A DNA stretch of 64,000 nucleotides, taken from positions 930,001 through 994,000 of the forward strand of contig JAHLKF010000003.1 of the NCBI GenBank assembly GCA_025558075.1. Direction: 5' to 3'. The stretch comes from Gaertneriomyces semiglobifer (lineage: Eukaryota; Chytridiomycota; Chytridiomycetes; Spizellomycetales; Spizellomycetaceae). The stretch's first letter is position 1. Every line of letters begins with the position of its first letter. The notes beneath the pieces were generated by a model. It was not told the DNA's origin. It worked only from the letters and a program-made list of their open reading frames with translations, and did not search any database. Both the position numbers and the translations under genes were made by a program. This document shows, piece by piece, positions 31,107 through 58,495 of the stretch.

Positions 31107-34100
31107 CTATATGACGCGCATCACCCACTCAACAACTTCCTTCAGCATGTGCATATCACAGAACTCGGCAAGATTGCCGAATACCTTCATACGCCGCACA
31201 AACTCGTCGCGCTTGTAATCCGTGACGATCATTCCACTGCAGTCGGCACAATTTTCCCTAAGATCCTCGCTTTTTACTAACTTGCAGCGAGAACACTTGG
31301 TGTCTTGCTGCTGCCATGCCGCCAGCCTTCTTTGTACGACCTCTACCATCCGTTGCTCGATTGACGCAGTGTCATACTCTGTTTGACAAGCAGGGCATAA
31401 CCAGGTGATACGTTTATCCGCTTGCTGCTGTTCATCGTCGAAACGGTTCGCGAAGAGATCTCGATCTCGGGTCAAGTCAACGTCCCGACAGTGATTACAC
31501 ACTTCGCAAATAACCTGTGCCAGCTTGAACGGTTCGCAAGGGTTCACAAATTTGGCCTCTTCGCTAAATTCCCCTTCCCCAATCAACATCAGCAAATCTC
31601 GTTTCAAGCCCCGTACTTCTCGTTCGAGATTCTCATCCAGTCCAAATACAGCAGTGACGCATTTAACGAATTCCATCGCTGGCTTCGTCATATGCAGATG
31701 TGATCCTGGTAGCAGCGGGAACTTATATGCGCTTGGATCCCCTTTGCCTTCCCGCTTGCGGTAAATCTCGGGAACGATCTTCAACAGTCTGCGTTTCATC
31801 TTCGTGCTGATGAGCTCACGTAAGAAAATCAACAGCGGGCTGTCACCGTCGTTCTCGGGTACCTGACCCTCGCGGTAGCCAGCAGCGATCGAATTCTCAA
31901 TTATCTTTCGCTGAAATGCTTGAATTTCAAAGATGTACTCAGCGATGGTCCTCATGAACTTTGGCTGCACGATAGGTGGTAAGTATTCGCCGATGTTCCA
32001 TTCCATTTCGGCGGTTACCACCGGCTGGACACGCTGTTGCGCTGCCTCATTGCTTTCGTCGGCTTCAGAAGCAACGGGTCCAAGCAGCAGCTCATCGACG
32101 TTTTCGCAAAGCAACCCACCATAGTTGTGGAGGTCGAGCCACAACAAGTAACCCCAATACCGGACAGCTTTGAGCTCCAGCATTTCCAGCATCGGCTTTT
32201 TATTTACAGCCTCCAAAATGTACTTAGAATATCCAACGGCAGTCCCAAGATCGCGTTTAGTTGTCTGCAACACAATTTTCTCGAAGCTGGCATAGATGAT
32301 CTTGCTCCCAAGCTTCTTGAATTCCGCGATAAGTTGTACAAAGACTCGTCGCATCAGCCCATGTACGAGGGAGAACAAAGCGGGATCGTAAAGCTTCGAC
32401 GATGACGACGTCAACCATCGATACAAATGTTCTAGTAAGAACGAAGCAAAGCGATTTCGTCGTCTAACCTCGTCAGCCCAACCCATAACCATCGACTTCA
32501 GGACATTGAAGGTTGCTGGACGAACCTCGCTTTCATCTACATTACCGAGCAAACTGCGGCCCACATCCCCCGCTTCTCCAGGAGTTGAAGTATAATCGTC
32601 CATCAAATGCCCAGCAACATGTGCAGCGTTGCCGCCCATAACGCCATCTTCCGTAAGGAGGCCACTCTGCATCAGCGTATTCAAGGCCAAATCCCATACC
32701 TCTACCTCGATCGTGACAGTATCATATGCACCAGGGAGATTGATCTCTGGATTAACCAATTCCTCCAACTCGAAACGGTTATCGTCCTGTTCACGCCCTC
32801 CCAAGTCCGGCTTTTCCGACAAAGAATACCAGAGTATCATATCCGCACGTTTGAGCCGCCTGGCAAGTCCAAGATCGGCGAGAAAAGCGGTGTAATCGAA
32901 GGCGATGTTACAGAATGGCACATCAGCGTATCTAGAAAGAGCGATTCGCTCCTTCAAAAAGTCATTCAACGTTAAGTAGTGCATCATCATGCGTCGGGAC
33001 ACATATGCTTGCCATCCGAGAGATGGGAAGGCCAGGTCCTTTTTCTGTGCAGGTAGGGAAATTATTGGGAAATCATGAATCAAGGTAATCCCGTTCATCA
33101 ACAAATGCCGAGAACTTTTAAGACTTTGCAGGGCGATAACCGTCGGCCCTCGTCTTTGTTCCTGGTATTCTCTCAGCGTCGCGTTTACGGCTGCCATGGC
33201 TTCATATTCCGTTTTCAGTACGGTTGAGCTTACTTCTAGATCTGAACTGTATGATATGACATCTGGTTCCACGCTGGAGCCACTCTGTGAAGGCGTAAAC
33301 GATGGTATAGCGCCATTCTTAGCCTCTTCGTACCGGTCTGCGTAAAGCGATTGCATATTCGGTATTTGATCTCGATTCCGTCCGGGATCGACTATATATA
33401 TCCAGGCCTTTTGTAGAGCGGTGGAGAAGACCCCAACTATCTGTCGGGAGCCTTGGGCTAATTGGAACAGGTACAGATAATGAAGGCCAGTATCACGTGA
33501 GAGGTACGGCGTTTGACTGTCGATGGTTTTGTGGTTAACCTCATCCAAATCAAACCCGTCTTCTAACCCGCGGCCGCTAAAGACTCTTTTGCGATCAATC
33601 GTGCTGACGCAACCCAATTTGATGAGTGCGCGGAATAACAGCGGAACCTGAAGTTCGTAAACTCCTTCTATTTGTTGGTGATTCGCCATGGACGCAAGCA
33701 TTGACGCATTTTCTCGGTAAAACGATTCGCTCATAGTCATCTCGTACAGGTATAAACAAGGGTGTGATCTGGGGAGCGTTCGCGTCCTTCTCACCATTTT
33801 GATACCCACGCGGTCCGAATCCTCTTCAGGGTCCGGTATTCGACTATTCACGTAAAACGTTCGCGGTACGGAGAGCTTGATAGAATGTAGGGTGCCTTCA
33901 ATAAGGGCCCAAACCCTGAAGTCCCCAGGTATGTCAGTTTCGGCAATCTGTAGAATCTGCCATGGCAGAGATAGAACATTTCTTGTTTGTTGTCGGAAGA
34001 ATCCGGCAACTGTGGATGATTGTCCGGCAGCTCCGGCATTGGCCCCAAGGCCTCGGTTGCCAAACATCGATTTATGCATGGCCACTTGCGCTCTACGTCT

Positions 34101-37100
34101 CTTCCATTTGCGTTTTTGAAACTCCAGCCACGCCGGATAATCCTCGTACATGCTAGGCATGTTCTCTGGACGATCGCGCTCTGGTAACTGGTCGTAGTCT
34201 TCGACGATCCTCGTCGGTTGGTCTTGAATACGTTTTCGCTTTCCACTTCGTTTGTGCACCACAGGAAGTGGTTTGTTCCTTTTCAGTACGGCATCCGGTC
34301 CTGTAACGTGTGCAATATCTTCCATATCCGCAACTGCCGTCGCTTCCTCCCTCTCAAAGTCTTCATCCTGGAGTTCAAGTGATGCTCCATCTTCCCTTTC
34401 AAGTCTTGCCGCAGGAGTTTCTTTGTCAAACATCTCTGTGATTCGGTATTGCTTGGTCTTGTCATCTTTTGCGGCGACTCTTTTATGTAACCAATCTGGA
34501 TGCCTGACTCTGGGGACGGGATTCGCCACCCCTTGCATAGCGGCGGGGATGGTAATCAATTTCTGAATAACACTACCAAAGCGCTCGAGGTAATACTTCC
34601 AATCCAAAATCTCCCGAATATCGAAACTCGTCATACTGCTATCTTTGAGCCATTTTTTCAAGTAGTGCTTTTTTATGCTCTCTTCAGTTTGGAAAATCAC
34701 CACCGGGATGGCTCGTTCGCTAACCGGGAGCCCAGCTGGTTTGGCCGAAATGACGAATTTACAATTCAATCCACGATCCTTAACCATTTGGTCGCCTAAG
34801 AACTCAGCCAGACGCCGGGCTGTGCTAATACTTGTCGACTTCTGAGCACCGTACTCTTCCAGGCCCTTACTCATACTTCGATTTTCTGAGATAAGTTCGA
34901 AAAGTTCGTCATCGTCCAAGTTGGCTCCCTTACTGTAGAGCACATCCAGCCATTGATCTGCGACTCGAGCTACCGCTGCATAGCACTCCGCAAGGGTTCC
35001 TCCCTCCAAAAACACCTTGAAAATATGGCTTTGGAAAATCTTAATCAACTTTAACTCTCCGCGACGCTTGACTTCAAATCCTTTCAATTCGGCCAATGAA
35101 CCGTCATCATTGAACACTGCGTAACGCTTCTTCAGCAGCTTATCCTCCTCAGTGCTGGATGGGAGAATCATAGCTCGATACGGTCCGTCGACCTCAAAGA
35201 AGATACTGTTTTCGCTACGGGTTGAGTAGGCCTTCGTCACTGGATCCGCAAGCTCCTGGTACTGATGATTGGTGAACTCATCATGAACCAAATGATTCAA
35301 CATAACACAAGGGTAAGAAATGGGGAAGATTTTTCCATTCTTCAGCTTGAATGCAAAGTTTTCTGGGAAGGTCGCGGGGAAAATACACCAAATACCATCA
35401 GTATCGAGCTCCAAGGGACGCCCAATTTGTTCGATACGTGAGCGAGCCAATTGAATGATAGTTGCTCCCGTGAGACAGACGATACCGGCCATCTCCATGG
35501 AATACCATCGGGCACCTTTTCTCATGACATAACCGTAGAAAGAGTTAAGAATACACCTGTAAATATGGTCACTAACGCGCTCGCCTGCAAAAACCCTTTC
35601 TACAAGATAACTCACTTATGTGCCAGCTGGAGTGAGTCGTACACAACAATGAGCTTCTTTGCCTCGTCAACCTTCGTCAAGTCACCCTCCTGCGTGGCTT
35701 CATCCAACTTTTTCTTCCAGGTTTTATGTAATCCTTTGTACTCGTAGCGTCGATCGCGAAAGTCTCTCACTGTGTTCACGTAGAATGGATTTTCCCTCTG
35801 GCAGACAATACTTTCCTTACCCACCACTTTGGATTCATGAATTTTCGCATATACTTTTCGGCTGTAGGTCGAAACACGCTTTTTGATGATCTGGTGTTGC
35901 TCGTATTTGCTCAATTCATGAAAAGCACGTAGTGCATCATCCGGCTTGCGGCCAGGAAATTTTTCCTGCTCTAGTTGGTTCTTTATCATATTGTATTCGC
36001 TTCGTTTTGCTGGAAAGTATTCTCCACGCCAGGACCAAAGCATTTTCCGTTGACATGTACTTCCTGGCCCCAGATTGAAATCACAGGAAGCGCAAGCTTC
36101 TTCGTTTACGATCGCGTCCGGTTGTAGGCGGTTTGTAAGAATGATGTTAGGGTACATCGCTGCTACATCCAAGTGATAAATGCTCGGCTTTTCTAAACGA
36201 TTGGGTATATCTCGAAGATTCTCCAGGGCCGTGACAATCTCAGCTTTCACTTCATCATAGTTCATTACGTCTTCTAGCTTCAGTTTTCCTTCTACAATGA
36301 TACTGAACCTGAGAGCAGCATCAATTTCATCAATTAACTATGATGTCCTTAATTAGTCACAGGTGCCCAAGTAGTTAGGGCAGGTGCTGCTCATACCTGT
36401 TGAAAGGCTTCCGGTACCAGTCTAAATTTTACAGGAATGTCGCTCCGGAAGACACCCGCCTCCAGGGCTTCGACATGTCCTCCCACGTAGGTCTCACTTT
36501 CTAGTAAATGACCATCGAAGAACTGACCAATTTTTTCCTGATGCTTATTCGGCATGATAACGTTCGCCTTATGGGCTTGTACCATCAGTAGTGTCTCGCA
36601 AAGGGTTCCGGATCCTCTCCGCAAAACGTCGTCCGGATTCATGGGGATAATGTTGCACAGGGAGAAAATAAAGGGATGGACGTATTTCATGTAAAGGTAA
36701 TAAGTGGCGACAGCATCGGAAACAGAGTATTCGGCAAGTTTCTGCGGTTGCTCCGATGCAAAACGAGTCATGTCTTCAGGATCAAGCTCGTCCGGATTGT
36801 AGCCTAACTTGGCTGTTGTCACGGCCTTCGTAAAGGTGGTTAACTTGATGCATGCAAGGGGTCGCAAGCTAACGGACCTGCTCATACCTTTAAGCCTTGA
36901 CTTCCTTGTGGCAAATACGAATCACGCTTTACCCAACAAAGCGCATCCATATGAATGCCGTAGTATGACTTGTACTCTTCCCCCATCTCTCGACAGAACC
37001 CGATTTCCTGCTTCATATTGATTCCATTCGCCGCCGCTCTTGCCTCTACAAACGGCCAATCAAAGAAATCACCGTTATATGTGACAAACACTGTAGGTCG

Positions 37101-38354
37101 CGCTTCTTGAATATGCTCGAAGAAACGTCGGAGCATGCTACCCTCGTCTGGCTCATTGAAGATCGTGAACACACCCTCATACTCGGGTTTGGGGGTATAT
37201 TCGAAATCATCAATATCTTCCGATACAATCTCACGGTTGGTGATAAGAAAACCTTGGCCGTCAATCATGTAGGAAATCATCATGATAGAGTCAATTGAAG
37301 CATCCGGAAATTTTAGCGGCAACTTCGTCGTTTCAATATCAAATGCAAGTACCACGGGGTCCGCACGCTTGACTTTATCCGGTCGCGGCTCCAATATGAT
37401 GGATCCGGTGAGAGCTTTGACATCATACCACAGACCCACGCGTAGGTCACAGTTGATGGCAGCCCGGATATAATACATCACATCGTACTCCCGCAGGTCA
37501 ACAACGTAATCTAGCGCTTCGCGCGTATTTCGATGTATAGCTTGATCATGTTCCGCTTTCTGCACGGCCATTTCTGCGAGCTCTTCGTATGCTCCCATGC
37601 TGTCTTGCTTCGCCTTATTCCTGTTTACCGCAGGCAAAAGATCTCTACGACAGGCCATCAGGTTTTGCATATTCCAAAACTTTATCTTCAATAATGTCCG
37701 CTTAATCCCGAGAAGGTGATTCGCTTGACTTAGATCATCTTTATTTATCTTCTCCACACCGATCAAGACATGCTCGAACCGCCGGCGGATGTAATCTTCC
37801 ACCTCGGGCTCTGTACCAGGTTTACACATTACGTAAAAGTACGGCTGATAAAGCACGGTCGCTTTAAATGTACCGCCGTCTTCCTCCAAAAAGTACATAT
37901 CCACGGCCGACTTGCCTGTCGGCCATTCCCCATCAAATATCGTGGTCGCATGAAGGTTGACCATCCATCCCAGTCGTTCTGGGCCTTCCGAATATCTCCA
38001 GAAGCCCATCTTTTCGTCCAACTCGTCGCGTGCTTTTGTTTCTGCTATTCGTGCTTCTACGGAATCGGAGCTTTCCACCTCAACCACTTCTGGCGCGGTA
38101 GGACGTGAATTGGCCGCGACGGGGCCATCAACCTCCCCTTCCCGATTCGTTACATCCTCCAAACTTAAGCTGTCATCTCCGATGCTATTGGTTGCGTAAG
38201 GGTTGGGCCTCGCCTTCGTACTTGACTTTGGCAGTGACCTGCTCGAGTATTTCTTGAACTTACTACCTCCGCCTCTGCTATTTCCACCAGCTCCACGACC
38301 ACCTCGCCATTTTGACTTCCATTTACCGCGAGCAGAAGGAATGCCAAAGGTCAT
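31107..38354 (-). CDS. POL2: DNA polymerase epsilon catalytic subunit
   Basis: Exons (minus) 36888-38354, 36397-36825, 35616-36337, 31107-35556; 2355 aa. A Gly/Arg/Lys-rich N-terminus precedes the proofreading domain: Exo [13 protein letters not shown] (~339), Exo [11 protein letters not shown] (~427), Exo [19 protein letters not shown] (~525). Polymerase motifs follow: [12 protein letters not shown] (~687), [18 protein letters not shown] (~874), [10 protein letters not shown] (~923). The cluster-binding cysteines specific to this enzyme are present ([14 protein letters not shown]). A PIP-like QYRITEMF occurs after the core, then the inactive second polymerase module. Two C-terminal zinc sites (CEVCNHC...CPAC and CSRC...CADC) bind the B subunit. 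This is the leading-strand replicase. Divergent from SPC24. Confidence 0.97.
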
Positions 38355-56473: not shown

Positions 56474-57556
56474 TTAAGCGGAAGCGGCCGCGTAGCGCTC
56501 GGCCACGTTCTTCCAGTTGACAACGCTCCAGATGGCTTTCAAATAATCAGGCCTGACGTTCTTGTATTGGAGGTAGTAGGCCTGTGATATAACGAGTGAG
56601 CATTTCCATCGGTGAAACACATACCGGTGCGTGAGAGTCCAAACTTACGTGTTCCCAAACATCAACACCAAGCAGCGGGACCAAAGTGGTAAGCGGGTCC
56701 TGGTTCGCAGTAGTGGCAATTTCTACGCGCTTGGTGGCCTTGTTGAAGCCCTGGTTATGACCCAAAGACGTGTTAGAGAGAACTCGTCTGAAGCGACCCG
56801 AGTGGACAGATGATACGTACGAGCCAACCCCAACCGGAACCCTGCACAGCAGCAGACTGGGCGCTGAATTTTTTCTGGAATTCGTCCAAAGAACCGAACT
56901 CCTGGTTAATGGCGTTTAGTAATGCACCCTTCGGGGGTTCACCGCCACCCTGTTTTTGAGGAGCAAGGTTGGTCCAGAAAATGCTATGGGTGTGCATGAG
57001 AACGCATGGTAAATGACCACTGATGCTAATACAAAGGGAACGAACCTGTGGTTAATGTGACCTAAGGCACCGCATCACTCTGTGTTAAAAGTAGGCATAT
57101 GGTGACCTACAAGATGCACCGGGACTCACCTCCACCGTTGAACTTGAGAGCCCCCTGGAGAGCAATCTGAGTTTTAATGTCATTCTTCTGCGTGGCTTCA
57201 TACTCTTGTTCGCAAGCAACGTTTAGGTTGTTCACGTAGGTCTGGTGATGCTTGGCATGATGGAGCTGCATGATCTCAGCTACAAATATCATGGTGATTA
57301 GCATGAATTGCACTTGCTCCTCGCGTTCGAGATACCACGATCGTTACCAGAGATAAAAGGCTCGAGCTACAAATGTTTTCATGGCGTTAACAACCTAGAT
57401 CTCATAAGAAAGAACGCGAAAAGTGCATGTACGTACAGCATTGTAGTCGTATGGCAGATCGGGAAGGGTGTGCTTTCCCCTAAAGGCAGCAGCGATGCTG
57501 AAGGCGCGACCGCACAAGGCAGGCTTAGAGACGATGCGACGAGTAATGGACAACAT
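56474..57556 (-). CDS. SOD2: Mitochondrial manganese superoxide dismutase
   Basis: Seven exons (minus): 57437-57556, 57348-57366, 57130-57279, 57046-57061, 56821-56983, 56649-56750, 56474-56581; 225 aa. Presequence [20 protein letters not shown]. Metal ligands: His in [10 protein letters not shown], His in GGGHINHSIFW, and Asp/His in [22 protein letters not shown] carries the Gln typical of Mn-SOD, and the protein ends near [19 protein letters not shown]. Exons 2 (19 nt, LEPFIS) and 4 (16 nt, GHINHS) are micro-exons; the fourth completes a codon set containing a metal-ligand His, so skipping would inactivate the enzyme. Removes superoxide in the matrix. The p22phox-like gene lies upstream on the same strand. 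Confidence 0.96.
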
Positions 57557-57951: not shown

Positions 57952-58495
57952 TCAGTTCTCAGGAGCTTTGATAGCACTCATGTCTTTCCCTCCATCTTTC
58001 TTCGCTGGCCGTTTCTTAGGCGGTTCCCAACTCTCTCCATTGATAGCGGCCCGAAGGAGCATGATCACACTGAAGACAAGACACATTGCAGCCGTTGAGG
58101 TGGGTGCAACGAGGATGGCAGGAACGATTGCCCCGGCATGAACCAAAGCACGTAGATACAGGTTGGAAGACAGGAAACCCAGCGACCCAAATGGCGCGAA
58201 CGGGTAGTCCCAAAACAGGAGAAGAAGGCCAGCCGCACTACATTAACCCGGTTAATATACTGTTGAGATCAGTCTCAAGCTCTACCATCGAGCACTCACA
58301 TGTTAGCAATGGCTAATATCATCTTGTTTGGGTACCATAGCGCGATAATTCCACCTGTGAGTTGAACTATGTGCGAGAGGCAGTAGCCGGTCAGTACCCC
58401 GCCCAAAAAGTAGCTCAGAAGCAGCAAATTCACTTACAAAAACCAGAACCAAGTCCTTGGAATCGTGCCCAAGGATACCAATTAAACCTCCCCAT
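57952..58495 (-). CDS. p22phox / NoxD-like NADPH oxidase subunit
   Basis: Exons (minus) 58438-58495, 58300-58366, 57952-58237; 136 aa. The spliced protein begins MGRFNWYPWARFQGLGSGFF, then QLTGGIIAL, AGLLLLFWDYP, NLYLRALVHAGAIVPA and LLRAAINGESWEPPKKRP. This keeps the p22phox order: MGxxxWxxWAxxQ start, LTGGI in helix 1, an (E/D)YP after helix 2, a YxRAxxH helix 3, and a GExWxP just after helix 4. Four membrane helices fit. p22phox (NoxD/Pro41-related in filamentous ascomycetes) stabilises the flavocytochrome catalytic NOX. The Pro-rich tail that binds p47phox in animals is replaced by a short Lys-rich tail. No NOX gene is in the window. Confidence 0.72.

Follow-up and report, generated by a model that had tools for sequence, protein, structure and literature searches.

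The question raised by the minus-strand gene at positions 57952–58495 of a 64,000-nucleotide window (Gaertneriomyces semiglobifer, contig JAHLKF010000003.1, positions 930,001–994,000) is whether this chytrid fungus has a p22phox subunit of NADPH oxidase (NOX), as an earlier note made from the sequence alone had proposed. On account of profile, pairwise, fold and intron-position evidence, we are highly confident that the product of this gene is p22phox (cytochrome b558 alpha), a subunit of a chytrid NADPH oxidase. The 136-aa protein scores 57.5 bits (E = 1.8e-15) against the PF05038 (Cytochrom_B558a) profile, which has a curated cut-off of 25 bits; the profile check suggested in the earlier note is thereby passed. 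Exon 3 alone scores 38.3 bits, also above the cut-off; at E ≤ 0.001 the 20.9-Mb assembly yields no other PF05038 match. The pairwise match to human p22phox has an E value of 8.2e-11. A four-helix membrane fold is predicted, for which the solved human p22phox is by far the best-matching chain. The gene is an ancient, well-preserved representative of a family already known, not something new.

Three exons (58, 67 and 286 nt) are spliced in phase to give 136 residues and a stop codon. The parts of the gene are as follows.
58438–58495, minus strand: p22phox exon 1, 58 coding nt with the ATG at 58495; residues 1–19 plus the first nucleotide of codon 20.
58367–58437, minus strand: intron 1, 71 nt, GTAAGT...CATAG, phase 1; at the place of human CYBA intron 1 (after c.58).
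58300–58366, minus strand: p22phox exon 2, 67 nt.
58238–58299, minus strand: intron 2, 62 nt, GTGAGT...GTAG, phase 2; at the place of human CYBA intron 2 (after c.128).
57952–58237, minus strand: p22phox exon 3 including the stop codon (57952–57954), placed by the PF05038 match and in-phase splicing.
57955–57987, minus strand: codons for the C-terminal peptide KDMSAIKAPEN (residues 126–136), conserved among chytrid relatives.
Stops arise when intron 1 or intron 2 is kept, or when the other intron-2 acceptor tried is used. With the other intron-1 acceptor tried, the frame stays open, but the protein is 4 residues shorter and the LTG of LTGGI is lost. The spliced protein is identical to the public 'hypothetical protein BC832DRAFT_548925 [Gaertneriomyces semiglobifer]' (P0001). 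The p22phox motifs are all present in the order described before: MGRFNWYPWA, LTGGI, DYP, YLRALVH and GESWEPP. Both the three-exon model and the motif order of the earlier note are therefore upheld.

The coding sequence is interrupted after nucleotide 58 (phase 1) and nucleotide 125 (phase 2). In the alignment with human p22phox, the chytrid protein is one residue short after position 30, and nucleotide 125 thus corresponds to human c.128. This position was deduced from the protein alignment before it was found in the literature. The fifth human CYBA intron presumably lies after c.369. The others are marked by variants (papers given here by PMC number are cited from excerpts): c.58+4_58+7delAGTG marks the intron after c.58 (PMC11219406), c.59-2A>G, c.129-23_129-5del and c.204-2A>G mark those after c.58, c.128 and c.203 (PMC8818666), and c.287+1 marks that after c.287 (PMC12343970). 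Both chytrid introns correspond to human CYBA introns 1 and 2 in position and phase. The chance that two random introns on 408 nt hit two of the five sites is P ~1.2e-4, where the location of the one-residue gap leaves some slack for intron 2 and the five sites include the presumed c.369. The coincidence therefore speaks for the gene model and for common descent. Among the matches listed for p22phox with chytrid, Batrachochytrium or introns in the open-licence literature, the excerpts contain nothing on CYBA introns common to fungi.

According to the NAD_binding_6 profile, the genome contains seven candidate places, and three of them qualify as NOX on their domains and best PDB matches. The search for a gp91phox-type NOX, which the earlier note had called for, was thus successful. 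The protein on contig C6 is clearly NOX2-like, with PDB scores of 424 bits for NOX2, 235 for DUOX1, 209 for a bacterial 'putative ferric reductase' and 193 for NOX5. That on contig C24 scores 296 bits for NOX2, 230 for DUOX1 and 222 for NOX5. EF-hand is not among the Pfam matches of these two proteins at E values up to 0.01. NOX2 is the best PDB match of both, and calcium-independent NOX is accordingly present in the same genome. In the case of the third protein, on contig C26, NOX5 is the best match (218 bits, against 174 for NOX2), and the Ferric_reduct match is below the cut-off. It is encoded in one frame of 1186 aa (about 33,750–37,310, plus strand; L009:2252-5809). No Pfam match was found in its first 636 residues, and no EF-hand was found. 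A NOX with an additional N-terminal domain would be reminiscent of DUOX. The C26 protein possibly corresponds to the chytrid NOX called 'unclassified' in PMC9421330.

The PB1 profile matches five places in the genome. One is NoxR/p67phox, with tetratricopeptide repeats, the activation-domain stretch YIGKAKVVAAVEATNNYAGF and PB1; another is Cdc24; and two are, by eye, CBS-PB1 proteins. In the fifth, a frame of 800 aa, PX is accompanied by a borderline PB1 (in one scan 23.1 bits against 23.6, in another 25.9), and no SH3 match was found. Judged from its domains, this protein is the likeliest candidate for a Bem1/p40phox-like organizer of the genome. The frame lies on contig C1 (about 1,906,560–1,908,960, minus strand; L017:1064-3463), and by eye another gene is close upstream. 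On contig C20 (about 307,970–311,480, minus strand; L069:968-4484), SH3, RhoGEF and PX are found in adjacent frames, which probably form one gene; this is the only PX–SH3 pair within 8 kb among the 17 PX and 43 SH3 places listed. Two tetraspanin places were also found. By family and predicted fold, the product of the gene at 57952–58495 is thus a p22phox; its introns lie at the places of the first two of human CYBA, and NOX, p67phox/NoxR and Cdc24 genes occur in the same genome.

The residues known to matter in human p22phox are kept only in part. Nine missense positions in chronic granulomatous disease (CGD) are G24, E53, R90, H94, L105, Y121, A124, A125 and E129 in the excerpted literature. 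Six of them are identical in the chytrid protein (G24, R90, H94, A124, A125 and E129). Several points weigh against an assignment to NOX function. Three CGD positions differ (E53 to D52, L105 to A86 and Y121 to L102), and S118, which we take to be a further disease position, is V99. In the buried polar network of human p22phox, formed by N11, E53, R90, H94 and Y121 (PMC9711523), N11 is replaced by R11 and Y121 by L102; R90 (R71) and H94 (H75) are identical, and D52 for E53 is conservative. The H94 position is Y in all five animal-type rows of the alignment and H in the chytrid protein. Only W6 and W9 are identical among the 12 human residues which contact NOX2 (PMC9711523). The TXXT motif of NOX2, read by eye from the alignment, is half kept in the C6 protein (TSAL) and lost in the C24 protein (SAAK). 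Because the contact and polar residues are partly kept and TXXT is half kept or lost, the choice of the NOX partner can only be proposed.

These partly kept residues are what would be expected if a protein of the p22phox fold had departed from NADPH oxidase and taken another role, for example as an endoplasmic reticulum (ER) or trafficking membrane protein, and ascomycete Pro41/NoxD was initially described as an ER membrane protein (PMC5542705). This explanation is quite improbable in view of the six CGD positions and of the NOX, NoxR and Cdc24 genes in the same genome; in addition, Magnaporthe oryzae NoxD interacts with Nox1 and is required for superoxide production, according to the excerpts. 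There is a negligible probability that the open frames come together by chance or belong to a decayed, pseudogene-like gene. The model does require two short introns, but an identical annotated protein exists, the introns are placed as in human CYBA, and 15 further chytrid sequences were found, of which 7 span the whole query and 8 span 69–88% of it.

A closer rival is that the protein is a true NoxD/Pro41 orthologue, with the ascomycete form as its nearer relation and the animal form more distant. NoxD and p22phox are regarded as homologous in any case, so that only the placement of the protein is at issue. NoxD/Pro41 (HAM-6) is also a small fungal p22phox homologue of like length; in Fusarium, NoxD (FgNoxD) is 146 aa long, and its gene contains two introns (PMC8928025). 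The chytrid protein also matches PF24853 (DUF7727, 139 positions; E = 6.3e-9, 36.9 bits), a family which is probably related to p22phox and might be that of NoxD, and no second p22phox-like gene was found in the genome by PF05038 and PF24853 profile searches. These features favour the NoxD placement; nevertheless it is unlikely, as the animal model outscores DUF7727 (57.5 against 36.9 bits), and a profile of 15 sequences reached sponge and hemichordate p22phox. No NoxD-named protein was among its matches, most of which are unnamed, when the 7997 candidates with the most words in common were scored. The reach of this profile into animals is an indirect sign in keeping with the earlier note's suggestion that the protein may be closer to the animal form than to NoxD. 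DUF7727, whose function is unassigned, matches 15 of the 15 p22phox-type proteins scanned, one of them from a sponge. Chytrid relatives named 'p22-phox' in UniRef are found in Spizellomyces (SPPG_02568, 68% identity), Powellomyces (56%) and Clydaea (46%); they are presumed orthologues.

The chytrid protein differs from human and animal p22phox at the C-terminus, where it has the short conserved tail KDMSA[IV]KAPEN in place of the Pro-rich p47phox-binding motif. The alignment contains 16 chytrid rows and 7 other rows; P0011 is partial and stops before the tail, and P0023 is apparently misread. The p47phox-binding PPRP motif occurs in none of the 16 chytrid rows (P0011 being partial), whereas it is present in five of the seven others, all except P0022 and P0023. 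The 136-aa protein has no C-terminal PPPRPP-type Pro-rich region, as the earlier note had observed. P0002 and P0012 each contain one plain PxxP. Eight sequences (P0001–P0008) end in the near-invariant KDMSA[IV]KAPEN. Their mean pairwise identity is 91% in the last 11 residues, 40% in the linker 115–124 and 67% in the core 4–112, so that conservation is higher in the tail peptide than in the membrane core. Such a pattern is that of a short putative binding motif behind a free linker. According to the NCBI taxonomy, which was looked up for all chytrids of the set except Blyttiomyces sp. JEL0837, seven of the eight species are Spizellomycetales and Phlyctochytrium arcticum belongs to Chytridiales. 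P0009, P0010 and P0013 end in the related SAKAP/SSKAP, and P0012, P0014, P0016 and P0017 are without the full peptide, as is the Clydaea protein. In the literature excerpts mentioned above, nothing on a chytrid tail peptide was found among the matches listed. In the chytrid protein the loop joining helices 2 and 3 is also shorter than in the animal form, the alignment showing 19 fewer residues ahead of R90, and arginines stand at positions 11 and 104. All 16 chytrids have R104, which none of the five animal-type rows has; of the 15 chytrid rows having position 11, 13 carry R11, and N occurs there in all five animal-type rows.

In the proposed mechanism, p22phox would use its helices 1 and 4 to pair with the catalytic subunit of a NOX, which it would stabilise; the NOX2-like C6 protein is the most likely partner. 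Its short cytosolic tail would act as an assembly platform for the activators NoxR, Rac and the PX-PB1 organizer. Because the Pro-rich p47phox target is missing, docking may occur via the KDMSA[IV]KAPEN tail, the helix 2–3 loop or a direct contact between NoxR and NOX. One tentative possibility is that chytrid NOX assembles without an SH3–proline contact, the tail K-[DE]-x-S-A-x-K-A-P docking the SH3-less PX-PB1 organizer; the Pro-rich/SH3 docking of animals would in that case have been added later, on the animal side, to a p22phox–NOX–NoxR core of older date.

The neighbour of the gene is a superoxide dismutase (SOD), which the earlier note named SOD2 and linked to the NOX product.
56474–57556, minus strand: Fe/Mn superoxide dismutase gene of several exons, in tandem downstream of the p22phox gene and outside the complex.
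The adjacency is real: on the same strand, the SOD gene follows 395 bases downstream of the p22phox gene, and of its four exon pieces all but that of the leader match Fe/Mn SOD families. The functional link is weak, as the leader is mitochondrial-looking by eye, NOX releases superoxide across the membrane, and the arrangement was seen in one genome only. Little weight is therefore given to it.

NoxD/Pro41 was reportedly named the fungal p22phox by Lacaze et al. in 2015. In a 2007 survey of 13 fungi including the chytrid Batrachochytrium, fungi seemed to be without p22phox, and Bem1-type SH3 organizers were proposed (PMC2121648). In a 2022 study p22phox was confined to opisthokonts (PMC9421330), and a figure legend cites Lacaze 2015 for a Batrachochytrium dendrobatidis p22phox/NoxD homologue (PMC5309816). 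As a chytrid homologue is already reported, the gene is mainly a confirmation of the known fungal p22phox, and the fresh points are limited to the tail peptide and the intron match. The introns shared with humans and the presence of the partner genes in the same genome indicate that the p22phox–NOX–p67phox core was already present in the animal–fungal ancestor. The chytrid system offers a way to ask how this core is activated without the p47phox docking site.
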